Source: Medicago truncatula (taxonomy: Eukaryota; Streptophyta; Magnoliopsida; Fabales; Fabaceae). Taken from it: DNA of 64,000 nt. Location: NCBI RefSeq assembly GCF_003473485.1, contig NC_053042.1:36732762-36796761 (forward strand). The letters run 5' to 3'. Made by a program: the position numbers and the translations under genes. Positions 9,851 through 41,782 of this stretch are shown one piece after another. The notes below the pieces were generated by a model. That model worked only from the letters and a program-made list of their open reading frames with translations, had not been told where the DNA came from and did not search any database. Position 1 is the first letter of the stretch, and each line of letters begins with the position of its first letter.

Positions 9851-11590
9851 TCAATCGAGTAACGAATCACCGCACTGCAATTTCCATTTCATGCAATCTT
9901 CCAAATTGAAACTGCTTGCACAACCCAGTAATGCGTTTTGTTGTTGTTCATAACGACATATATAGTTCAATCCTTTAAGAAGTTCACATATAGCTTCCTC
10001 TGTCTTTATCTTATCAGCAAAGTATAATGTCTGAAATAGTAGCACATTCGTCCTGCTAACTATTCCACGTTGCTCAAAATTCCTCTCACTTTGCCATTTC
10101 ATCATATTATGAGCAAGCGGAGCAAGCCACCGAAGTATCCCGTCAAGAGTCGCCTTCCAGTCATGTGCAAGAGGGGCATCATATATGGCCAAATTCTTGA
10201 CATATGTCTTAAGTTTGGCCTTCAAAGATAACCTTAAGCTAGTTGGCAGCATCTTATATAGATCATCTCTAGCTTCCTCACCAATTAAATGTGGAAAGCT
10301 AAGTACTTTCTCAATGACAATAATGATATTAGCATAATGCAATGCAAGTGCACATCCTCCAAGAGTTGAAGGAGGAGCATAAACAACAGCTAATCCACTA
10401 TTTGCACCAAAGGTTGAGCATAAGTGCTCCTTTTTCTTGACAATATTTCCAATCCCAATAGGACTTTGAGAGCTTGATACACAACTGTAATGGTCCTCGC
10501 GATCGATAGCAACATCATCGAAATCGTCGAATTTTGAAACTGAGCTACTTAAACTCAGACATTCCATGAAAAGTCTCCCAGGACTTGTTCCACAAGGAAA
10601 ACCAAAATCTTCAAGTTGAACATATGCTAACTCACCTCTCTTCATATCTATATGAGACCTACTACTACCATTTCCCCCAATTGAACTCAAATTGTAACCA
10701 GTTTTCTTGCTATGACTGCGTTTCAACTTCTCCGACAAATTCACCTCAACATTAATCAAGCTAGACGCCGAACCACATTCATTTTGCACGAGTGGCGAAC
10801 CTTCACAGTTACCAATCCCAAGGCCATCCTTCCTCACAGTAGAATCACCAAAGACCATGCAGATTCTTGCATACAAGGTACAAACTGTCCTGGCCAACAA
10901 CTCAACAACCTTATCAAAAGTCTGATTCCAAAGTGAAATCTCCTTAAGCTGCCTCACATCTTGCTTCTGCCATACAAGCCTCTGCTCAAACCCCCTTCTA
11001 CTCTCCTCATTCTGACTATTATTCTGAAACTTCTTCACTGTTTGCTCCAACTCATTCAAACCCCCCATTTTACTATACAAACTCCTAGTAGCACTCACAT
11101 ACCTATCCATTTTCCTCACCATTCCTTCCATATGCTTAACTAAAAACCCCAATTCATTCACATCTATAACACCACTAACAATATCACCATAGACATGCTC
11201 AAACCCTTGCAAAGCAGGCACAGAACACTTCTTCCCTAACCTAGAAACCACACCAGCAACACGGTTCAATTCCTCGAGCTTCTCACGTCGAACAAGCTCG
11301 AATAAATAACCCTCTTCTGAAGAAACCAAGTTCCTAACACCCTCTGAGTTCAAGATCTCATTCCTTAACTTTGTTATCTCAGATTCAGACAATGATTTAT
11401 AAAGTTGAATGGTTTTGGACATTACATTAGCTACTTCAAAAGAAAGAATACCTATAGTTTCTACTTTCTTATTCTCTTTCCTTTTAGGACCATGTTTTCT
11501 ACTAGTAGAAGAAGTTTCAAGCAAAAGGGCTTGTTTAATATTTGCACTTACTTGGTTACCCATCTTCAAAATCCAAGCTTCAGCAACCAT
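9851..11590 (-). CDS. DUF3475/DUF668 protein, PSI (PSK simulator)-like
   Basis: The 579-codon uninterrupted frame encodes a plant-specific protein with the N-terminal DUF3475 segment at residues ~45-105 (IGILSFEVANVMSKTIQLYK, then EEGYLFELVRREKLEELNRV). The DUF668 segment is at ~400-495 (YAPPSTLGGCALALHYANII, DLYKMLPTSLRLSLKAKLK, DWKATLDGILRWLAPLAHNM). A low-complexity, probably disordered linker at ~250-395 joins them. Related Arabidopsis PSI proteins affect growth downstream of phytosulfokine signalling; transfer of that role is inference. The start MVAEAW matches, as far as I recall, the usual start of this subfamily. A second Met at residue 10 (MGNQVS) would make an N-myristoylation signal (G-x-x-x-S) if used instead. 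The single-exon structure is normal for this branch. No damage is seen. Confidence 0.93.
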   Translation of the reverse strand: MVAEAWILKMGNQVSANIKQALLLETSSTSRKHGPKRKENKKVETIGILSFEVANVMSKTIQLYKSLSESEITKLRNEILNSEGVRNLVSSEEGYLFELVRREKLEELNRVAGVVSRLGKKCSVPALQGFEHVYGDIVSGVIDVNELGFLVKHMEGMVRKMDRYVSATRSLYSKMGGLNELEQTVKKFQNNSQNEESRRGFEQRLVWQKQDVRQLKEISLWNQTFDKVVELLARTVCTLYARICMVFGDSTVRKDGLGIGNCEGSPLVQNECGSASSLINVEVNLSEKLKRSHSKKTGYNLSSIGGNGSSRSHIDMKRGELAYVQLEDFGFPCGTSPGRLFMECLSLSSSVSKFDDFDDVAIDREDHYSCVSSSQSPIGIGNIVKKKEHLCSTFGANSGLAVVYAPPSTLGGCALALHYANIIIVIEKVLSFPHLIGEEARDDLYKMLPTSLRLSLKAKLKTYVKNLAIYDAPLAHDWKATLDGILRWLAPLAHNMMKWQSERNFEQRGIVSRTNVLLFQTLYFADKIKTEEAICELLKGLNYICRYEQQQNALLGCASSFNLEDCMKWKLQCGDSLLD

Positions 11591-11960
11591 AGCTAGTTAG
11601 CTACTACTTTCACCAAATTTTCCTTCTGCAACAGCCCAAAAGTGAAACTTTCTAAAAAAACAGAATTTACCTAAAGAAGATCAAACCCATTAAAGGGAAG
11701 AAGGAGAAGATCACAAAAACTTGCTAAAAATCCAAACTTTCATGGTAAAAAAGGGGGTTTTTGAGATGAATTTTTTTAGGGGGTGTAAGAAAAACAAAAG
11801 GGTGCAAATAGAATAAAAATTGAAGAAGTCAAAAAGTGGCATAGCAATAGCAATGAGAAGAAGAGACAGAAAGAAAGTGGAGGGAAAAGGTTAAGGTTGT
11901 GATGTGTTCTTTGTCTCTTGTTCTACATTTCAAAAAGGAGATTCAGAATTTTTGAAAGTA
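11591..11960 (-). promoter_or_regulatory. 5' leader and promoter region of the PSI-like gene
   Basis: The region directly upstream of the start codon is rich in purine/pyrimidine tracts on the transcribed strand (CTTCTTCTC-like words around 11690-11890), as is common in plant 5' leaders. No clear TATA box can be fixed without transcript data. Confidence 0.35.
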
Positions 11961-14371: not shown

Positions 14372-14565
14372 GGCTTAATATATGCTTTGGTCCCTTAACT
14401 TATTTTTGAATTTTATTTTGGTCCCTTAACTTTAAACTGTCTCAATTTGGTCCCATAACTTTACCTCTGTTTACCTAAATAACAGAAGGTAAAGTTATGG
14501 GACCAAATTGAGACAGTTTAAAGTTAGGGGACCAAAATAAAATTCAAAAATAAGTTAATATACCT
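14372..14565. mobile_element. Palindromic MITE, TTTGGTCCCTTAACTT family (deleted copy)
   Basis: The left arm reads TTAATATATGCTTTGGTCCC and then TCTCAATTTGGTCCCATAAC. The right arm is its inverse (GTTATGGGACCAAATTGAGA), with almost no loop. The copy at 14922-15174 is longer in the middle (it retains GTGGTCCCTTCGG), so this copy has an internal deletion. Confidence 0.8.
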
Positions 14566-14845: not shown

Positions 14846-14921
14846 TAAATTTTGTTTTTAATTGAAATTATTTTGATTTAGATTAAAATTATAGGTATAG
14901 ATATTAAAATTATATTTATTA

Positions 14922-15174
14922 GGTTTAATATATGCTTTGGTCCCTCAACTTATTTTTGAATTTCATTTTGATCCCTTAACTTTAAACCGTCTCAATTTGG
15001 TCCCATAACTTTACCTCTGTTTACCTAAGTGGTCCCTTCGGTTAGTTTTTTTAACAGAAGGGACCATTTAGGTAAACGGAGATAAAGTTATGAGACCAAA
15101 TTGAGACGGTTTAAAGTTAAGGGACCAAAATGAAATTCAAAAATAAGTTGAGGGACCAAAGTATGTATTAAGCC
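14922..15174. mobile_element. Palindromic MITE, TTTGGTCCCTCAACTT family
   Basis: It begins GGTTTAATATATGCTTTGG and ends with the inverse CCAAAGTATGTATTAAGCC. The arms pair over about 110 bp each. It could fold into a long hairpin if transcribed and is therefore a plausible small-RNA source (inference). Confidence 0.85.
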
Positions 15175-15563
15175 TATTTTAATTAAGTTGACCAACTTTT
15201 CACTTTAATTAAAGTAAATTAAGTGGAATCAATTAATTTTATTGTTCCTTAACCAGGGCCCCGAAGCACTAGATAACATTACCCATATTATATTCCTTTT
15301 ATCTTTCCTTGGCCATAACTTCTTGATGGCTGGTAAAATATGATTAATTACAAATATATTACTCACTTCTTTCGTAGTTATGTGTTTCTTTTTTAATGTT
15401 CCCGCGACTCTATTTACTTGATATTATGCATTGATTTAAACTTCGTATCACGATATATGATTCTATCATCAAGCATATATTGACAAACAATATTTTAAAA
15501 ATCTCTTATGTTCTAATCCTTTAAATATGGATTAAGTATTTTGAATAATAACGTATAACTCTA

Positions 15564-22567: not shown

Positions 22568-23450
22568 GAGTAAATAGTCAATTTCCCTCCTGATATTGTA
22601 AGTTTCATCAATTACCCCCCTGAAATTAATAAAACTTCAATTACTCCCCTGAAATTTTACAACGTTAGTCAATTTACCCCCTCCGTCAAATTTTTCTGTT
22701 AGTGAACATGACGTTTTGCAAATACCCCCTTGAAGTTTTGCACTTATGTGCAAAATGCCCCCCAAACTTAGAATTTATATTATTTTTTTCTTTCTTAAAA
22801 ACAAACAATTAATAGTTAAATATTAAAACTAACTATTAATTTTAGAATTTGGGAAAACTACATGCATATATACATCAAAATAGACTCCAAAATGGGGAAA
22901 AATATGTATTTTTTAAAGTGACAATAATGGGATGATTTGTGGATTAATATTGGGGGTTGTGTAGTTTAAATGGTTTTAGCAAATTGTTGAAGGAGTTGGA
23001 GGAGTTAAAAGACTAAGATGGTGAAAGAGAAAATATAAATTTAAATCTGATTATTAATTTGTTTATAAACCTCTAAAAATAATAATTTGTCTATTAGAAA
23101 TAACCATTATTGTCACTTTAGAAATACACATTTTTCCCTATTTTGATGTATATATGTATGTAGTTTTTCCAAACTCCAAAATTAATAGTTAGCTTTAATA
23201 TTTAACTATTAATTGTTTGTTTTTAAGAAAAAATAATATAAATTTTTAAGTTTGAGGGGCATTTTGCACATAAGTGCAAAACTTCAGGGGGTATTTGCAA
23301 AACGTCATGTTCACTAACAGAAAAGTTTGACGGAGGGAGTAAATTGACTAACGTTGTGAAATTTCAGGGGGATAATTGAAATTTTGTTAATCTCAGGAGG
23401 GTAATTGATGAAACTTACAATTTCAAGGAGGAAATTGACTATTTACTTTT
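22568..23450. mobile_element. Fold-back Mutator-like element, sister of the 5052-6099 element
   Basis: The ends are GAGTAAATAGTC and its inverse GACTATTTACT. A TTTTGTGTC direct repeat (9 bp, extendable to 10) lies on both sides (about 22559-22567 and 23451-23459). The arms pair for about 350 bp each (22568-22930 with 23107-23450), leaving a loop of only ~175 bp. They share the ATTACCCCCCTGAAATT, TTGCAAATACCCCC and GCACTTATGTGCAAAATGCC words with the element at 5052-6099, proving a common family. No coding sequence is present. Confidence 0.88.
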
Positions 23451-26639: not shown

Positions 26640-28230
26640 GGTTTTGCAAGTGATCGTTATATTGCAAATTGTAGCAAAAAGTGGTCAAAGGTTGAATGAT
26701 TATAATAGTAGTATCATTTCTCTAATATTGTGTGATTAAGATATGAGGGACCCTATAGATAGCACAAAGTGGATCATGATGCGTCTTTCTTTGTCTTGTT
26801 TTGACGTTTTTCTATTATTTTCACGTAATAATCAAACTTACTGGGTCCTCCTTCTCCATCCATGCCTAGTCGGTTTTCTGTCACATTCACCATAACAAAT
26901 TCTTATGTTTGATTGCATTATATTATTTAAATTCTACCACCCATAATTAATATGTGACTCAAGTTTTTTTTATACTAATGTTTACGTGAATTTATGGTCA
27001 CAATTTTTTTTACTAATCCACCACTCACAAATCTCTTTGAATCCCACGACTCAGGTGTGGTTACGTGGTCAAGTATAAAACCAGCACTCACAATACCAAC
27101 GTGTGATCCAGATCGTTTGCAATTAAAATAAGGCTTACTATACATTTTCATACCTACAAGATTGACAAGATCTATTTTTATTTTTAAATGATGATTTATA
27201 TGATTTTACAATAGGCTTTGTCATTAACTATATGGAAGAATTTGATGCAACTATAATTGCTAAAAAATTACAAATGAAAACCAGAGAAAGATTAAAAAAA
27301 AAATTAGACGGTGGGAGTAGCCCAACAAAATCAGACATTGAACATAACACATGAACCATAGTCTACTCTTTTATTTTTATTTTTTTACAAGAACCTTAGT
27401 CTAATTTCCTCCCTTTAATTTTGAAAGTTACAGTAAAAATAAGGTAGCCTTTGAATACTTTTTAACTAAAAAACAATCAAACCTATAAAGTAGTATGATA
27501 ACCAAAATGCATAACATTTGACAGCTTAAGTTAGTACAACTGTAGGATGACCAATATGAAAGCAAAGTAGAATGAATAGTGGAAGCTGGGAACCCACCCA
27601 TACTCTTTTAGACAAAAACTATAAAGAGTAAGACTTTAACATTTTTTCGCAGTTCAATTTAGTTTTTTACAAAAAATAATATTCAAATTAATCTCTAACA
27701 TTTATATGCGAAAAACAAATTAATCATCCACTTATTACAACAGATGAGCTAGTTTGTCTCCCAATTTAAAAATTATTTTTTATCAGAAACTAAATTGGAT
27801 CGCGAGAAAAATCATGAAAAACTAAATTGAGTTTTCACTCGACTATAAACAAAAAGGAAATAATGGATGTATTCCTTCAAATTATGCTTCACTGTCCGAC
27901 AAAGATGAGAAAACCACATGGAGGATATTTGACCAATCTAAGTCAGTCTAGAATACTATGATGTCTGCTCCATAACAGTTGTTTCTTTAGTCTGATTTTT
28001 GAAAATTGCATTAGATGAAAGTTCTAGACAGTGCATTAGATGGAAGTAAATTAAAATAGTCTAGTACAACATTGTCTAACTTAGCCAGGTGCAATGCTTT
28101 ATTGTGCATGATAAAGGAAGTTGCTATAAATCAATCAATTAAGCAGCATATGAAGGAATGGTCGGAGTGAATTTATATAGGCTTCTTTGAAGTGAAGGTA
28201 AAATACTACTGAAAAGTGTACTCTATCACA
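26640..28230. other. Intergenic, AT-rich
   Basis: No gene recognised. The GTCTAGTACAACATTGTCTA region (27960-28080) contains short repeated words (GCATTAGATGRAAGT) suggestive of a small repeat. Confidence 0.4.
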
Positions 28231-28238
28231 TATTATAA

Positions 28239-28290
28239 GTCCCACATCGATAAGGTGGAGTGGAGGGAGTACAATTGCTTCATATAAATA
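28239..28290 (+). promoter_or_regulatory. Plant snRNA promoter: USE plus TATA box
   Basis: GTCCCACATCG (28239-28249) is a perfect plant upstream sequence element (consensus RTCCCACATCG). TATAAATA follows at 28283-28290, after 33 intervening bases. In plants a USE-TATA gap of about 33-34 bases marks RNA polymerase II snRNA genes (U1, U2, U4, U5 type). Polymerase III genes such as U6 have about 10 bases less. Confidence 0.88.
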
Positions 28291-28315
28291 CACTAGAGAG
28301 CTGGTAGAGCAAATT

Positions 28316-28438
28316 AAAAAGGGTCAGTTGGCTAAATATGCCACGCTCATCATGATGATGAGTGCTGTATGGCTATCAAGACATATGGCTGACATAATTT
28401 TTGTAAATCAATAGGGTTGGTTCGTTTAGCCGACCCTC
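28316..28438 (+). ncRNA. U11: Sm-class spliceosomal snRNA gene, probably U11
   Basis: The predicted RNA starts AAAAAGGG about 33 bases after the first T of the TATA box. GUCAGUU (28323-28329) can pair with GGCUGAC (28387-28393) to close a junction. Within it, GCUCAUC and GAUGAGU form a hairpin. The Sm site AAUUUUUG is at 28396-28403. A terminal hairpin GGGUUGG/CCGACCC (28414-28420 with 28430-28436) ends the RNA. A near-match to the plant snRNA 3' box (CA-N4-AGTTTTAA) follows. From memory, human U11 also begins AAAAAGGG, has a closing GCUUC/GAAGC stem, an AUCAAGA motif and AUAAUUUUUUGG; here AUCAAGA lies at 28375-28381 and AUAAUUUUUG before the last hairpin. U11 recognises U12-type 5' splice sites. 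snRNA class is near certain, U11 identity likely. Confidence 0.78.
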
Positions 28439-29280
28439 CATCTTAGTTTTAAAATTTTGTTTATCATAATTTTTAAATAAGTTTTTGGGTCTGCGACTAT
28501 TTTTAAATATTTCAGATTATGTGATTTAATAAGAGCAACAATTTAAATCTCTCTACTTTTTTAATAATACTCTACAAGAAAAAGTTGACTTTTTAGGTTC
28601 ATAGAATAATTAATGTATTTTATTGTTAATATAGACTAGATAATAAGGACCGGAGGGAGTAGCTTGTATGCTCACCACACCAGGAGTGTTTGATTCACGT
28701 GGGCAAGCAAGAAAGCATAAACAGTTTAAAAACCTATCACAAGTGAAATTCTTTTTTACCATCTAAACTCATCAGAAATAGAGTCAAGTCTTTTTTGCTT
28801 TACGAAAAAAAAAATCAATTTTGTGATGAAAAAGCAATTAAATCTCTTTGTTGAAATCCGTTAATTGATTTTGGGGTAAAAAGTGATTAAATTTTAAGTA
28901 GTTTTTATGAGCTTCATCATCAACAAAAATCCCAAATTGAAGGAAGTCCGGAAAAGAAATTCCAAAAATAAAAACTTCAATATTTTTTTATCATCATCCA
29001 ATGGGATTGGTCCCTTTGGGAATTTTTTTTTTTTTTGGAATTTTATTTTCAGTAAAAATTAATTAAAAAAAGGTAATTTGTTGATTTGAACTTGTCAAGT
29101 AAGCACTTTTTAACCGAGTTGGATTGAAAAGGATAACAATGCAAACATTTTATAATTTAGAAGATCAATTTGTTACAAAAATATTTAAAGGATTAATTAG
29201 TTACAAACATCTAATTTAAATAACCGCCGCTTGATGTATTTGGCTTAAAATTTATGGAAAAAAAATAATAATAATAAAAC
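28439..29280. other. Spacer between the U11 gene and the ARP9 exon copy
   Basis: AT-rich. A GGACCGGAGGGAGTAG end of a small MITE is at 28649. A matching GGACCGGAGTGGGGG at 30338 sits in the equivalent place of the right-hand duplicate. Confidence 0.5.
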
Positions 29281-29690
29281 TAATGAGTCAACATGTGAAT
29301 TTTCACAAATTGAATATTTCCACAATTAATCTTTCTAGTTTCAAGGTGCTTTTAGAGTACAGAAACTATAACTATAACTTTAAAAAAAAAAAAAAACTGT
29401 CTAAACTCATTTGAATTGACTTTATCATGTGACACACCAAACAAAGACAAGTAACAAAGGATTATGTAACTTTAATCCATTAATTTATAGGTGTTTCAAA
29501 CTTGATAATGTATCACAGACCTTCCAGAATTCATGTAATACATAGCTTGAGCTTGAAGATGATAAAAATCCTTGTATTTTAATTTATTTCCAATGTGAAC
29601 CCCAGTTTGAATTGAGTCCTACCGATTTATTAATGCATCCCTACCTAAATCAAGTACTCCAAGAATCTGCAAACACAATGTCTTCAAGAG
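29281..29690 (-). pseudogene. Decayed duplicate of the last ARP9 exon and its 3' flank
   Basis: Bases 29523-29666 match the final exon of ARP9 (30586-30729) at clearly homologous positions. After an intact acceptor (TTTGCAG) the reading is ILGVLDLGRDALINR, then an in-frame TAG where ARP9 has GAA (E). It continues QTGVHIGNKLKYKD and LQAQAMYYMNS without the normal stop. The 3' flank (29281-29520) also matches the ARP9 3' flank (CAACATGTGAATTTTCA and TTTATCATG-GACACACCAA words). No other ARP9 exons are present here. Confidence 0.88.
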
Positions 29691-29736
29691 GTTATGAATT
29701 ATCCGTAAAAAAAAAAAGAGGTTATGAATTAAGAAA

Positions 29737-29898
29737 GTCCCACATCGAATAGGTAAAGTAAAAAGAACGCCAAGTATTTCTTATAAATATAATAGGTAAG
29801 AATTTTGAATAATTAGATAGGGTGAGTTGGCTAATTATGCCACGCTCATCCTCGTTGGTGAGTGCTATATGGCTATCTAGACATATGGCTGATTATTC
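29737..29898 (+). pseudogene. Decayed second copy of the U11-like snRNA gene
   Basis: The USE GTCCCACATCG (29737-29747) and TATAAATA (29782-29789, 34 bases apart) are intact. The RNA part keeps GAGTTGGCTAA, ATGCCACGCTCATC, GTGAGTGCTATATGGCTATC and GACATATGGCTGA. The 5' end is AGATAGGG instead of AAAAAGGG, the Sm site is replaced by ATTATTCTCAC, and no terminal hairpin follows. The promoter may still fire, but the RNA could not form a normal Sm particle. Confidence 0.8.
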
Positions 29899-30585
29899 TC
29901 ACAAAAGTTAAAATATAAAAATAAAAAAAAATAAGGAAAAATAAAAATAAGATTAAAATAGAGAGGAAGTACAGGATTGGTGGGGCATGGACCTGACCGT
30001 AAATCACAGAAACAACCCTAAAGGGTATAAAGCAAAACTCCAAATACCAACTACCACGGACAGTTCGGCGCACCCACGCGTGGATGCGAAACCGAATTGC
30101 AAAAAACACATAGAGCTAGTGTTTAGAGCATCTAGATAGGCGTATGAATCATCTACCTACACAGAAACGATCCAAGTTCCAACAACTCCCTAAATATCAA
30201 ATATTTTTAGTAGAATAGTAATAAAGTTTATGGAACACAAATGAATTAATGTAACTTGAGAAAGTTACTCTGATTCCAATTATAAGAAAATAGTATAGAC
30301 CAGATGAGCCTAAAAAGTCTAAAATTTCTTATAATAAGGACCGGAGTGGGGGTATTAATTTATATTTTAAAATACATGAGCCAACATGTGAATTTTCAAA
30401 TATTTCCACAATCAATCTTTCCGGTTCCCAGGTGATTTTGATGTACATAAAATATAATCAACTACATAAAAAAAAAACTGTAAACTCGTTTGAATTTACT
30501 TTATCATGAGACACACCAAAACTTCAATCCATGAAATTAGTAGTAGTAGTAATAAATTTGAAACTTTAAGATGTATGACAAACCT
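29899..30585. other. ARP9 3' flank
   Basis: Contains a stretch of higher G+C (29985-30110) of unknown origin. The 30355-30585 part matches the duplicated flank at 29281-29520. Confidence 0.5.
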
Positions 30586-33500
30586 TCAAGAATTCATGTA
30601 ACACATAGCTTGAGCTTGAAGATAATAAGAATCCTTGTATTTTCTGTTACTTCCAACGTGAATCCCACTTTGAATCCAGTCTTCCCGATTTATCCATGCA
30701 TCCCTGCCTACATCAATTACTCCAAGAATCTGCAAACACATTACAGGTACTTTAAGATGTTGAGAATTTAAAAGTTATTCATAAAACTATTTAATAACCA
30801 AGGAGAAGAAGAAGTTAATGAAGAAGTGAAGCATGATGATCATATGTACTCAACATACCGCCCCGCCTTTCCATGACACAAATGTCGGATTTGCCCTTGA
30901 TTGTATCACCTAAGAGCAAAGAAAAGAACATATTACATCAAAATAAGAGACAAGACATAATAAACAAAGCACAGTACAAAAAATAAGAACAGTAAAAAAT
31001 TAAAATACTAGAGCAGTTGCTTCATTTGGACTAACCTCCACTGTATCAATTGCTTCATTTGAAGGAATAGCATGTAAAACTCTGTTGTAAAAAGATAAAA
31101 AAGATTCATCCACCAGTTAAACTTGAAAAAGTAATCAACGAAATCATTGATAATGCTAGGTAAATCTACCAAAGTCGAAGGAAATTGAAACAAACCTTTC
31201 TTCAACTGCAGGAACTAAACCATTTGTCAAAGCCACGCCGCCAGTCTATTCCAGATAAAATGTGTCACTTTCTTTCGATCAACATGCAATATAATGAACT
31301 TCAAAATGCTGAGCTCAAAGTGTAAAACTCACCAATTGTATGCTACAAAATAATTTTCTTTGCATGTCTATGCGACCTGTGAAAATAAGCACCAAAGAGC
31401 TAAACAAGGCTTGAACTCTGTATAAAATGGAGGAATATAATATAAAATAAGTTACCAGTTGAGAGAATGCAGTTGGTAATAGCCTCTGCAAGGCCAAGAT
31501 TTTCTTCTTTTTTCGGCTTAGTTGAAAAAGGTGGATAACTTTCCCACATGGGCATTCCTCCATTAACGTTGGGATAGAAAGTGTCGGACATGTCAGACCT
31601 TCGGGAAAAATCAATTTGCCATGTATCTTCTAGCATATCCTCATGGTCATTAAACCTAGCAAGGGAAACGACCAGGGTTGTGTAAACGCAAAATTGTTCA
31701 CAAACATGGTCACAGGCTGATAGCACAGAGAGAAAAATTTATGAATGCACTAACCAAGTCCGTGGTGGAGGAGGATACACATCAGGAACAAAAAACATTG
31801 GATAGAACAATCCCATAGGAGGAACCTATGCAATAGTATTTGTCATTATTTAAACAGCATTATCTACTGGCAAAATGTGAGGGCAAATGAAGAAAGAATA
31901 CTACAGAGAGCACATACATTAAGAGCAGTAAGTCTTGTCTTGTGAGATCCTGGCAGCACTTTGTCCTCATAGGAATGAACTACTGCAACAGCATCAAGTT
32001 GCCCCTCCTATAGATAAGATACTAGATAATTTAAATTGAACTCAAGTTTGGAATCAAGTTAAATTTAGAGTATCACTAGTCGTACATGATTTGATGCCTT
32101 TTTTTTTTTGTAAAAATTCATCAGACACATGTTCAATTTCAATGTTATGGGTTATTTTTAATCAAAATATAATTTATTTTCTAAAGACTACAATGTGGCA
32201 AATACACAATGGCAAAGTGGCGTGACAGATTTTTCGACAACTGCTATGGCCAATTTGTGAAGATCCATTGGCCACTATAGCATGTTTATACTTTATATAG
32301 AGAATTTTCGGCCTTCCGCCATTGACATTACTGCAAATGCATGCAGCCATGCACGACTCCAACTAATAGATAACGAAGCCGAGAGAGAAATGAGTGCGAA
32401 AAAAAAAGAGATAATAGCTTTAGGCAGTCAAACAACCCTTGTGATGTAAACTCATGCTATAAATAGCTTCTCTGGTGTTTTTTCAACTCTGATTCGATAT
32501 TAGCAGTATTCTCTCATTTCTCCCAACTCTCTGTTTTCTCTCAACTAAGAATTATTAAAATGGCTTCTCTTGCGAGTTAATAAAGTGGTAATTTGGGAAA
32601 TGAGATAAAGTTGTAGAACTCACTCTGATTTCACAATATGACTCTTTGAGTTGATTTAACATTAACAGATCGATTGGCTTTGTCAGCATATCTGTTCGAA
32701 TTTGTGGCCAGGTCTGGTGATGTCTTTGTGTATAGAGAAGGCTCCTTGATATATCCTGAAAATATGAAGTTATTATTTGGAAATTACATAAAATATTACC
32801 ACAAACACAAAATTTGGAATACAAAATATAAGACCACACGTGCAACACTTAAAAAATCAGCACATTAGATACAAAATGGCAACATATTTCATACTTGATA
32901 AACACACTTTTTAATTAAATAAGCACGGGATTGAGAAGGAGTGTTCTAAATATTTTTAACTGATGGAGTTTTGTAAGTTGTAAGTGGCTCATCGACAAAG
33001 TATCAAGGTTTGGTGTCAACAAATATGTCTCCATACATCCAATTTTTCACTCTTAATCCAATTGTTCAATTTGTTTTCAGTATTTAGGTTTTCTTGGAAC
33101 GCTAGGGCTACAAGGGTTTTGTGTTCAATTTGTTTTCATTCATAAAATTAATACAAATGATTTGTTATAGACTCATAGACATCAAAAAGCTTTATGTGTG
33201 CTACGTGTGGTGGTTGGTCAGAATAGTTTGTTTTTTAAACTTATAATGTTATTTCCTTATGAAATACAGTGTTCATCCTTTTTGGTGAATGTTGGGTGTA
33301 AGATTGGTCCTTGGATCAACTTTTGCTGACTACCCATGATGGATTTAGTAAAAGTAAAGAGGCTAAACTTTTATGACAAAGTGCAATCTAGGTTATTATT
33401 TGATTTGATGCATTTAGTTAGAACATAAAGGTCATTTAAGGAGATTTCTTTAGCTCAGCAGCTGATACAGTATAAAATTAGGCATTTGGTTCTCTTTGTT

Positions 33501-36500: not shown

Positions 36501-39500
36501 GTTATGCAGCATACATAAGTAGTAATAATAATTAGTTATAGGATGACTATGCTTTGACAATTGACATTAAATTATGATGCAATGCAACAGCTAACTTATA
36601 AGGCACAATACAGAATTCTCAAGATACACTTATCTATATTTTCTGCTCATCAACTAACTTGAATTGATTACATTTGGGTTAGGAAGTGACATGTACCTGC
36701 TGCATGGGATAGTGTTGTGAAATATTCAAATGTCCTCTGCGGATTGGACGACATAAACAATACGGTTCAGTGGGGGATATTCTTAATGCTTCCTCGCCAC
36801 AAATGAACTTTCTGAACTTTTGATTGCTCGCACCAATTTCCTTCAAATCTGTACCTTCTTCTTTTGGGTTCAAAGACTCACTAGTCTCAGCTTTACTCGC
36901 AGTATCTACAAATGTCAATTTATATATGTAAGATGTCCTAATTCATATAAAAGTAACGGCATTTCAAATCGAAACACGAAGTAATTTCAAATATTCGAGA
37001 CAGTTAACATCAAATTTTAAAAAAATTAATCCGACTAACAACTTAAAGTGTAATGACTACTGAGCTCATGCAAGCCTTCAGCAACTTGTCAGACCATGTT
37101 CTAACTTCAAGACAGGTATACTAAAAATAAAATCATCATAGAATGTTAAAATCTGAGATACCTACATGCAAACTTCCATGTGAGAACTTTTTTTTTTTTT
37201 AATTCTTAATTACCGTCTAATATTAGGTACTTGGTAAAACAGACTTGAGATATACCAAATGCTAAGCTAGTTGACACAAACATACCCAAAGCCACAGATG
37301 GAACTGAAGAACACAGAAAAGTACTAGGTAATATGCAAAAAAAAATACCATTTACTCTTACCTAATGCTGAAACTGAAGATGAACTAGTGACCTCCTCGT
37401 AAACATTAGTCCAAGTGAAGGGCGAATCTTTCCTATGTGGCATGTGTCCATCAACGCGCCCCATCTGTGCATTTAGTACAATGGAATTGACTAATGATCA
37501 GTTTTATGATATTATACTAATCGTACCAAAAACACAACCTAAGTATTTGACAGAATTCTCCAAATATACAAAACTCGTAGTATTCATTGAAGGGCGTTGC
37601 TCTTGAGAGTAAAAGTGATTTTTCAGAAATCTTAGTATTCATACTTGTTAAACTGCTATTAGATTTACTACCATTGAATGATCAGCTTATGTATTTTTAT
37701 ATACTGTTGGGATTAATGTTTACTGGTCATCCTGCTATCTGCTATACCACTTTAGCGGTTTCAGGTTTGGGCACTCTATCTTACTATCCGAGATAAACAA
37801 CATAGCTTAGAATTCCAAAAAAGGGTCAATCAAATTACGACGGCATATCCTCCACGAATGATATGTCTGTCAGCACGTTTGTGTTATGTAGTTAATTAAT
37901 TTCGTTAAGATCAAAATCTTCAACATGGCAAGTACAACAAATGTCACATTATTTGAAATGCAGTCCCAAGCTTAAACAGTTCCAAAGAAAACCCCAGAAG
38001 GTCCAAACATTATAAAGTATCATAACAAACATGAAATCAACCAAAACTGAGGAGTTCACTTAAAGTGTAACAGAAAAGAAATCATATACCTTACGAGGGA
38101 AAGAGTTACTGGAAGGTTCTTCATCCAGAAATGGTATCTTCAACAGCGATGCAATCTTTTTTACACAAGAAAAAAGGGAAAAAGCCAATATCAGCAAAAT
38201 GTAGCATAGAAGTAACAGTTCTGCAATGTATCATAACTTACAACATCATAAGCCTTTTCCCTTTCCATATGCTGTGCAGTTGTAACTTGACTATTGAGCA
38301 TCTAAACACAAACAAACAACAATTGAAGTAAAACATATATACCTCTAAAGGAACTGAAAACAACTGAATAAAAATATAGTACGATAAAATAATGAAGATT
38401 TAAATATGATTTTAGTCTCAGCAAATTCAAAAAATTGTTCTTTTAGTCCCTCATGCCATACATGGTCCAATAAAATCACTGCCACATGGCCCAATAAGCT
38501 GACGTCCGAGACTAAAATCAATAGTTTTTGAATTTGCAGGGACTGAACCCGAACAAAAAAACTTGCAGGGACTAAAACCAAACACACTATAATTGCAGTA
38601 ACTAAAATCATATTAAAACCATAAATTCACGAAATAAAATAATTCAAAAACCTGATCTCAGGGACTAAAACCAAAAACACTGTAATTGCAGGAACTAAAA
38701 TCATATTAAAACCATAAATTAACGAAATAAACTAATTCAAAAACCTGATCTCAGGGACTAAAACCAAAAACACTGTAATTGCAGGAACTAAAATCATATT
38801 AAAACCATAAATTAACGAAATAAAAGGCTTAAATAAGTAAAAGGTCCCTGTAAGTTGGCGCGTTTTTGGTTTTAGTCCCTGTAAGTTTTTTTCTTGCGAA
38901 ACAGCCCTTGTAATTACCAAACGTTTTGGAACTCGTCCCTGCCGTCAAGTTCCGTGAAAAAAATGGTTTGCTGGCTAACGGACGCCTACGTGGCACATGA
39001 TGGTATGGCAACTGGTGCCAACTGGGTTAAGTAGAAGGACTAAAACCAAAAAAGAATTTTTACACAGGGATGTAATTAAAAAAACCGTAAACATCAATTT
39101 TTGAATTTTAAAAAACTCTTTCCTTCTTCTTCATCTCTTTGATCTTTCATTCTTCTTCTTCTTCTTCAATCCTTCCATATCCAACTTTCAATTGCATGCG
39201 CCCTAAAACCCTTTTTCCTTCAACCATGTCTTCTCATTCCATTTCTCAATCATCATATTAGGCAACTCATCAATTCCCTAAAACCCTAAAATGCACCAAC
39301 TTACAGGGCCCTTTTCCTTATTTAAGCCAAATTCAAATTATCAATGTTGAAAAGTCACTACACACCCCAGTTGATCAAATATTTGATAAATAAAGCAACG
39401 GTATAAGCACCACAACTAAGTTCTCAATAAACTTGTGGACAGCTGAAATGATTAACAAACAATCATCGGAAGAACCTTAAATTCTTCAACATGCCACACC

Positions 39501-41782
39501 TTTGAAAGGAAAACAATGCCATATGGGTTCACTTTCACTAGGTTAATTTATGAAAAGGTAACATAGCCTTGTACTTATATCAGATAAAGAGGACTGCTAG
39601 CAACACTCTCTTTTGAGCACTTTCTCTAGCACTTACTCTTTTATTGGTTGAATTCAATGTAGGACCTACACTTTGAAAATGGAATCCACATAAAGTGGTG
39701 GGACATACAATGATTTCACCCAATAAAAGAGTGAGTGCTAGAGAGAGTGTTCAAAAGAGAGTGTTGTTAGCATTCCTCATCAGATACATTAGGCATAAAT
39801 ATAACACTAAAAGGGAAACATCACACAACAATGAGGAAGATCATGAACAGACTTATGCTGCAAACTAATTTGCCATTATACAAAGATCTATGAGAAATCA
39901 TGAACAAAACACATAATACACTAACCACACTAAAATAGAAAACCAACGTTATTTAATTTTCATAATATAACCGGTTGAACAATTCCAAATCATCACATCA
40001 CATGATAATCATTTGCTTTCTTACTTCATTCTTTATCATCTAGCATCAAATAAAGCAACACATATGCATTCAATCACACACACACACACACACACATCTT
40101 TTTGTATGTGCCAAAACAACACTCCTTGAAACTCAAAACCTTATCAAACACCAACTACAAAGAACTCAATAATCTTGGTAATGCATATCTCCATAATCAT
40201 CTCTGGCAGAAGTAAGATCACTCTCAACCATATCCGCAAGACCACGCTCTTCATACCTCACCCCTTCTTCCAGAGCAAGTCGACCCAGTGCCCCAACAGC
40301 AACACCAACAGCTAGTCCAGCTCCTAAGCCCATTTTACTGCCTTTTGGCCCCGGATCAAACGAGGATGAATATTCAAGTGGCGCAGACGGTCCACTAGGC
40401 CCAACAGCAGCATAACTTTCAATACATTCAAAGAAATGGTGTGGCGACGGTGGTGGTGGGTAAGCACCACTGGGATAATAACCGGGAAAGTAACTGCCAC
40501 TAGAATAGTTATCAGAGTAATTTGTGTAGTAATTATAAGGTGAAGGTGGTGGAGAAGGTGTAGAATAGTTATCAAATGAGTTGCCTATGGAATGAGAACA
40601 CATTGTTGAAGAAAATGGGTTTTAGGGCGCATGCAATTGAAATTTGGACATGGATGGATTGAAGAAAAAGAAGAATGAAAGATCAGAGAGAGGAAGAAGA
40701 AGGAAAAAGTGGTTTTTAAAATTCAAAAATTGATGTTTACGTTTTTTTAATTACATCCCTGTGTAAAAATACGTTTTTGGTTTTAGTCCCTCTACTTAAC
40801 CCAGTTGGCATCAGTTGTCATATCAGCATGTGCCACGTAGGCGTCTGTTAGCTAGCAAACCATTTTTTTCACGGAACCTGACGGCAGGGATGAGTTCCAA
40901 AACGTGTGGTAATTACAAGGGTTGTTTCGCAAGAAAAAAAATTGCAGGGACTAAAACAAAAAACGCGCCAATTTACAGGGACCTTTTACTTATTTAAGCC
41001 GAAATAAAATAATTCAAAAACCTGCTCTCAGGGACTAAAACCAAAAACACTGTAATTGCAGGAACTAAAATCATATTAAAACCATAAATTAACGAAATAA
41101 AATAATTCAAAAACCTGATCTCAGGGACTAAAACCAAAAACACTATAATTGCAGGAACTAAAATCATATCAAAACCATAAATTAACGAAATCAAATAATT
41201 CAAAAACCTGATCTCAGGGACTAAAACCAAAAACACTATAATTGCAGGAACTAAAATCATATCAAAACCATAAATTAACGAAATAAAATAATTCAAAACC
41301 TGATCTCAGGGACTAAAACCAAAAATGCTATAATTGCAGGAACTAAAATCATATCAAAACCATAAACTAACGAAATAAAATAATTCAAAAACCTGATCTT
41401 GAACGTTCTTCTTAGGAACTTGTTTGGTATAATGAGCAATGCAATGAGGGATATTATAAGGGGTATCTTGTGAAGCCAATCCAATTCTGATGTTTGCAGA
41501 ACCTGAGAAAATAACATAAAGTCACCATTTTTAAGTACATAATGTTGATTTTATTTAAACTTAGAGCTAAAATGATTAAAAGAGCATAAGATAAAAAATG
41601 GGTAATGCGCAAAATTGGATTTTTTTGCATACCTGGGTTGATAACAACGAGATTGGAACCACGGTCTGACATAATCTGTGAAGGAAGCGCGGATTTAAGG
41701 TAATCCTGTGACATAGAACACATGAGAACAGAATTGTTAAATTCAAAGGGTTAGTTAAACAGAATGAGAGAGAAAGTACCAT
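30586..41782 (-). CDS. ARP9: Actin-related protein 9
   Basis: Twenty coding exons give 592 aa, close to Arabidopsis ARP9 (596 as I recall). Plant ARP9 is a nuclear divergent actin of the Arp8-type subfamily, likely a chromatin-remodelling subunit by relationship. Exons (minus order): 41780-41782, 41633-41705, 41393-41502, 38242-38301, 38090-38155, 37362-37464, 36697-36905, 35444-35564, 35258-35322, 35056-35145, 34519-34569, 32624-32755, 31918-32007, 31755-31825, 31456-31655, 31333-31376, 31196-31245, 31036-31081, 30859-30909, 30586-30729. All junctions are GT/AG and every phase closes. It starts M|DYLKSALPSQIMSDRGSNLV with INPGSANIRIGLA (actin phosphate-1 region). An insert follows (about residues 90-200). 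Then come the core VFGNGLSTACVVNIGAQ, LTFGGE and TGGVALTNGLVPAVEER, and the end is LQAQAMCYMNS. The first intron separates ATG from the rest. Confidence 0.95.
32756..34518 (-). other. ARP9 intron 11 (1.76 kb) with repeat remnants
   Basis: A large intron between LTFGGE and DISRSLLYTQ. The 33440-33790 part (CTCAATAAGGGGATCTCC, GCGGCTAGTCTGCGCCCC, ATATCCCGGGGTCTTGG) is richer in G+C and looks like an old retroelement fragment. No frame supports a protein. Confidence 0.4.
38398..38620. mobile_element. MITE with AATATGATTTTAGT ends
   Basis: The left TTTAAATATGATTTTAGTC and right ACTAAAATCATATTAAA are inverted. The interior carries GCAGGGACTRAAMCC words. Its right end is the origin of the 93-bp tandem unit that follows. 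Confidence 0.65.
38621..38825. repeat. 93-bp tandem array, left part
   Basis: Units begin CCTGATCTCAGGGACTAAAA at 38651 and 38744. The array is broken at 38826 by the TIR element and resumes at 41001. Confidence 0.9.
39589..39778. mobile_element. MITE nested in the TIR element
   Basis: The arms GCTAGCAACACTCTCTTTTG and CAAAAGAGAGTGTTGTTAGC pair over ~58 bp. Flanking ATCAGATAAA (39579-39588) and ATCAGATACA (39779-39788) form a 10-bp target duplication with one mismatch. Confidence 0.85.
40074..40096. repeat. (CA)n microsatellite
   Basis: About 11 CA units upstream of the end of the internal open frame. Confidence 0.85.
40166..40603 (-). CDS. Captured gene segment: 145-aa Pro/Tyr/Ser-rich protein inside a TIR element
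   Basis: An uninterrupted frame lies wholly inside the 38826-41000 element. Residues 1-75 are rich in P, Y, S and N (STPSPPPSPYNYY, SGAYPPPPSP). At about 91-145 is KMGLGAGLAVGVAVGALGRL, then EEGVRYEERGLADMVESDL and a DDYGD tail. This resembles, from memory, the C-terminal tail of some plant SRC2/C2-domain proteins (YPPP-rich, then a GLGAGL small-residue stretch). The C2 domain itself is missing, so it would be a partial copy. The frame is open with a good ATG and lies antisense to nothing but intron, on the ARP9 strand. It may be expressed from the TIR or be a recent, not yet decayed capture. Function is unknown. Confidence 0.55.
   Translation of the reverse strand: MCSHSIGNSFDNYSTPSPPPSPYNYYTNYSDNYSSGSYFPGYYPSGAYPPPPSPHHFFECIESYAAVGPSGPSAPLEYSSSFDPGPKGSKMGLGAGLAVGVAVGALGRLALEEGVRYEERGLADMVESDLTSARDDYGDMHYQDY
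41001..41400. repeat. 93-bp tandem array carrying copies of the exon-3 splice donor
   Basis: Units start CCTG[AC]TCTCAGGGACT at 41021, 41114, 41207 and 41299. The last boundary, CCTGATCTT at 41392, is the true exon-3 end. On the gene strand every unit reads AGATCAG|GTTTTTGAATT (the first AGAGCAG), so the array repeats seven exon bases, the donor and intron start, joined to a MITE end. Confidence 0.92.

Follow-up and report, generated by a model that had tools for sequence, protein, structure and literature searches.

U11 is a small RNA that helps to remove a rare class of introns, and the question raised by this locus in Medicago truncatula is whether it encodes that RNA in a form that could still function, or one of the many things that can resemble such a gene. 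We consider it very probable, from sequence comparison, that positions 28239-28441 of the window (i.e., the whole 64,000-nt stretch of DNA analysed) constitute a complete, probably working legume U11 small nuclear RNA (snRNA) gene; this gene would be one half of a tandem duplication and the only promoter-bearing complete U11 among the loci found, with the dispersed loci having the look of retrocopies. Its parts are as follows.

28239-28249, + strand: upstream sequence element (USE), GTCCCACATCG, an exact match with a chance control by shuffling
28283-28289, + strand: TATA box TATAAAT, starting 33 nt past the end of the USE, with another 33 nt from there to the start of the RNA
28316-28441, + strand: predicted U11 snRNA gene (Rfam RF00548, 81.3 bits), with matches to the dispersed copies mostly ending at 28437-28441
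28316-28323, + strand: 5' end of the RNA, AAAAAGGG, identical to the Rfam consensus and capable of pairing at 5' splice sites of the U12 type
28323-28393, + strand: multi-helix junction closed by GUCAG (28323-28327) and CUGAC (28389-28393), from the Rfam alignment and the fold
28396-28403, + strand: Sm site AAUUUUUG, aligned with the Rfam consensus AUAAUUUUUG
28413-28437, + strand: 3'-terminal hairpin of 10 bp with a 5-nt loop, downstream of the Sm site, from the Rfam alignment and the fold
28439-28451, + strand: possible 3' box CATCTTAGTTTTA, with one mismatch against CA(N)3-10AGTNNAA

An earlier note, made from the letters of this region, had called the RNA U11-like and proposed a search with the Rfam U11 model. 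That search matched RF00548 over its full length (model positions 1-134 of 134) at 81.3 bits against a cut-off (gathering score) of 39, with an E value of 4e-13 for the whole 64-kb window. The individual elements that the note had listed, namely an RNA start at AAAAAGGG, a stem-closed junction, an Sm site and a terminal hairpin, were each recovered at the coordinates given above, and UAUCAAGACAUA is located at 28374. Like the Rfam family, the Medicago gene is full length and keeps the 5' AAAAAGGG, the junction, the GUAUGGCUAUCAAGACAUAU arm, the CAUAAUUUUUG Sm region and the terminal hairpin; it differs from the RF00548 consensus in having a shorter second helix and two missing terminal-hairpin positions, seen as alignment gaps. 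The full-length match together with the kept 5' end, closing stem, GUAUGGCUAUCAAGACAUAU, CAUAAUUUUUG and hairpin thus supports the identification as U11. The RNA folds at -41.9 kcal/mol (z -3.73), a stability reached by 0/200 shuffled sequences. The 5' AAAAA is paired with the UUUUU of the Sm site when the RNA is folded at minimum energy, and is free in the centroid.

It is extremely improbable that the locus instead encodes a small RNA of another kind, be it some other snRNA, a snoRNA or the hairpin of a microRNA. Families of snoRNAs, microRNAs and CRISPR repeats do match weakly at or near this place, but all under their own cut-offs; only U11 stands above, by 42 bits. The family scan returned no other Rfam family above its own cut-off here, so that a significant hit to a competing snRNA model, which the earlier note had named as a possible refutation, did not appear; another snRNA or snoRNA at 28316-28441 was accordingly rejected. 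Exact U11 core patterns had 0 matches in genome contigs of bacteria and archaea and 0 in viral contigs, as expected for a plant gene.

Two further features proved less informative for the U11 reading. The U12-type 5' splice site is AUAUCCUUU, and its duplex with AAAAAGGG has a predicted energy of -5.8 kcal/mol; among random 10-mers from the window, 187/20000 pair with AUAUCCUUU as well as the U11 5' end does. The 5' end of the decayed duplicate described below reaches -5.0 kcal/mol, and pairing energy was set aside as a weak discriminator between gene and duplicate. The 3' box, for which the consensus is CA(N)3-10AGTNNAA (PMC545797, PMC5079582), had been reported in the earlier note as a near match. 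The one-mismatch match is indeed present at 28439-28451, yet an equally good one is found in 49% of 5000 random 66-nt slots of this AT-rich window; the 3' box therefore carries no weight, and was dropped as evidence at chance level.

In the promoter, motif search placed the USE at -77 and the TATA box at -33, with a gap of 33 nt, bearing out the claims of a perfect USE and of a TATA box 33 bases beyond it. Counting both strands, the window has two exact USEs, versus 0.013 expected in each of its mononucleotide shuffles (n = 300), and TATAAA lies 33-34 nt downstream of both. The layout had also been called typical of plant polymerase II snRNA genes. In such genes the USE and TATA box are described as four helical turns apart, with U6 and U3 genes having them one turn closer (review, PMC9845283), and the 33-nt gap of the U11 gene has the four-turn spacing. 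The same arrangement recurs in a U12 snRNA gene of this genome (L024, assigned to RF00007 at 95.2 bits), with an exact USE at -76, a TATA box at -32 and again a gap of 33 nt; the two genes share these promoter elements, while their RNAs belong to different families. This USE/TATA layout points to transcription of the U11 gene by RNA polymerase II. A second U12 locus (L025, G000:C4:1014491-1014649), on a different contig from the intact U12 gene, has an exact USE and no TATA-pattern match between the USE and the RNA start.

The second exact USE in the window belongs to a duplicate that lies ~1.5 kb downstream of the U11 gene.

29737-29747, + strand: second exact USE, that of the duplicate
29782-29788, + strand: TATA box TATAAAT of the duplicate, 34 nt past its USE
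29815-29899, + strand: decayed U11 duplicate with the 5' end AGATAGGG (RF00548, 25.2 bits against a cut-off of 39)

Over 82 nt the duplicate is 87.8% identical to the U11 gene. Its intact USE and TATA box (gap 34), its 24/26 readable stem pairs kept and an exact 3' box motif directly past it (29900-29912) might be taken to mean that it also yields a working RNA, as a second U11 gene or a regulator. We regard this as unlikely to a high degree: (i) neither an Sm motif nor a terminal hairpin was found in 29815-29899, and a stable snRNP is not expected without an Sm site; (ii) at minimum energy the duplicate folds into something other than the U11 junction; (iii) its score falls short of the family cut-off; and (iv) its 5' octamer is mutated. 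The repeats that lie around gene and duplicate hint at the origin of the latter.

29275-29700, - strand: decayed copy of the probable 3' end of an ARP9 gene, with an in-frame stop, 76.6% identical to 30368-30768
30586-30774, - strand: probable last exon of an ARP9 (human ARP8-like) gene, a 62-aa open frame convergent with U11

Exons upstream of 30586-30774 on the - strand match ARP8 of human and fungi. The 30586-30774 exon itself, when compared alone with the PDB, gave no ARP match up to E 10; within a joined query, it falls into place against the end of human ARP8, but at a negative score. A Pfam search with nine open-frame pieces of the ARP9 region returned, among the relevant matches, only a sub-threshold Actin. 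In the copy nearer the intact U11 gene, translation places the in-frame stop within 29494-29700. The repeat pair 29275-29700 / 30368-30768 makes it probable that a unit of U11 plus the probable ARP9 3' end was duplicated in tandem. After the duplication, one U11 probably decayed beside an intact ARP9, and the other probably stayed intact beside an ARP9 fragment that decayed. The description of the surroundings as a non-coding gap must be amended to this extent: the gap is not simply empty but holds, within 1.6 kb, a decayed copy of U11 and another of an ARP9 exon.

In plants, the homologue of human ARP8 is given as ARP9, At5g43500 (PMC4358907). A literature search for coordinates of the Arabidopsis At5g435 loci found none. 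We take At5g43500 to lie close to the Arabidopsis U11 candidate on chromosome 5. From this arises a proposal that we hold tentatively, at somewhat less than even weight: that the U11 supply of the plant comes from a single gene, the surviving half of the tandem of U11 and the ARP9 3' end, and that the linkage of U11 to ARP9 may predate the split from Arabidopsis.

Further copies were sought in the genome, a 429.9-Mb assembly of 42 contigs. A DNA search with 28230-28445 as query, in which all 14 candidates were scored, gave 15 matches: the U11 gene, its duplicate and 13 more that fall at 12 dispersed places (two at one place). A family search, in which 40 of 49028 first-look candidates were scored, gave at least 8 matches over the cut-off, all at places already found by the DNA search. 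Of the 14 loci found, only 28239-28441 combines a promoter with a complete RNA. No USE with up to 2 mismatches was found within 120 nt upstream at the 12 dispersed places, nor one with up to 3 mismatches at the second piece of the place that holds two (L020/L023).

Retrocopies of RNA made by LINE-type machinery are marked by boundaries at the RNA ends, an A-rich tail and a target-site duplication. The dispersed matches start at query bases 81-90 in 8/13 cases (the RNA begins at 87) and none starts further upstream; 11/13 end at query 208-212 (window 28437-28441), and the two remaining ends lie at 204 and 181. At 10/12 places, 5 or more consecutive A stand within 16 nt of the end, versus 96/2028 background 16-mers from the same loci, with no such run in L011 and L022; tail A content exceeds 95% of the background at 5/12 places. 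Target-site duplications of 12-15 nt flank 3/12 places, versus 0/132 cross-locus pairings, and one of these three (L014) is a 5'-truncated copy with its duplication at the truncation point; no duplication of at least 9 nt was found in 8/12 copies. The dispersed loci thus look like retrocopies of U11 RNA, with the marks present for the set and not for every copy. A search of the literature found, by title, no report of plant snRNA or U11 retrocopies.

Since retrocopies begin and end with the RNA, they indicate that a U11 gene of this lineage was transcribed. Their boundaries imply an RNA that starts at ~28316 and stops near 28437-28441, and the presence of such decayed copies elsewhere in the genome suggests that a U11 gene of this kind has been switched on for a long time. 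The copies would serve as a fossil record of the ends of U11 RNA and of the past sequence of its gene. In the latter respect the gene and the majority consensus drawn from the 12 copies disagree at 8/125 positions (one a 6:6 tie and one a 6:5 majority), and the T at 28427 is in none of the 12; the retrocopies therefore speak for an expressed U11 of the lineage and not for the exact sequence of this gene.

The consensus of the copies keeps 37/37 stem pairs, and it agrees with the gene in both 5' octamer and Sm site. Counted on the structure folded from the gene itself, which favours the gene, 30-35 pairs are kept by each of the six copies with all 37 readable, and the remaining six keep 31/36, 34/36, 27/33, 28/28, 25/27 and 17/19, with the part-length copy L011 being the one that retains all 28 of its readable pairs. 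It seems, then, that the gene has changed over time and that its structure was kept.

The 8 departures from the consensus of the copies could also be read as the mark of an intact-looking pseudogene, with the working gene located at another site in the genome, hidden in an assembly gap or simply missed by the searches; that the family search scored 40 of 49028 first-look candidates leaves some room for this. We nevertheless think it very improbable. The DNA search, with every candidate scored, revealed no other complete copy with a promoter; 28316-28441 ranks first in the family search, at 81.3 versus 64.8 bits for the next best among the candidates scored; and the promoter and stems of 28239-28441 are intact.

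For a working gene at 28239-28441, a course of action can be outlined, with family knowledge supplying its later steps. The USE and TATA box would recruit RNA polymerase II, the layout being evident and the polymerase presumed from it; transcription would start at A28316, and the RNA would be trimmed near 28437-28441. As in other members of the family, an Sm ring would bind at AAUUUUUG, the RNA would join the U11/U12 di-snRNP, and its 5' end would pick out U12-type introns at their 5' splice site. The sequence and the layout needed for this course are present; we infer present-day transcription, the cap, Sm assembly and the role in splicing.

Plant U11 had been called poorly annotated, a claim that published work corrects. 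A single Arabidopsis U11 candidate was reported in 2004, after BLAST with human U11 had failed (PMC545797), and in 2023 a survey of more than 3000 eukaryotic genomes is described as having searched each with RF00548 (PMC10639083). Compared by description, the Arabidopsis candidate (chromosome 5:17,492,101-17,492,600) resembles the Medicago gene in its USE, TATA box, Sm site and 5' splice-site pairing region (PMC545797). It differs in that Medicago U11 has a tandem duplicate and retrocopies, of which the consulted portion of that report mentions none for Arabidopsis (PMC545797). A literature search on Medicago U11 turned up no paper. Plant U11 genes are already known, and the annotation of the Medicago locus is sound and fairly ordinary. 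It gives a legume a well-supported gene of the minor spliceosome and leaves the knowledge of minor splicing unchanged. As the only complete promoter-bearing U11 among the loci found, the gene could offer a clean target to experiments on U12-type splicing in a plant.

Other features of the window were recorded along the way. A MIR5269 microRNA precursor at 39644-39723 scores 82.2 bits, above its Rfam cut-off. Matches to MIR2655 at 14388-14565 and 14920-15176, on both strands and under the cut-off, look like inverted-repeat MITE-type elements. Both microRNA families come from Medicago, and their matches point to M. truncatula as the host. In 22574-23442, two open frames resemble each other and face opposite ways, and ends of the TACYCCCTCCG type lie at 22675 and 23331; the segment is probably an inverted-repeat transposable element. 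On the - strand, 9851-11596 encodes a 581-aa open frame with DUF3475 and DUF668 domains. Finally, a 93-bp tandem repeat is nearly the same in two arrays, at 38566-38825 (2.8 copies) and 41000-41399 (4.3 copies).
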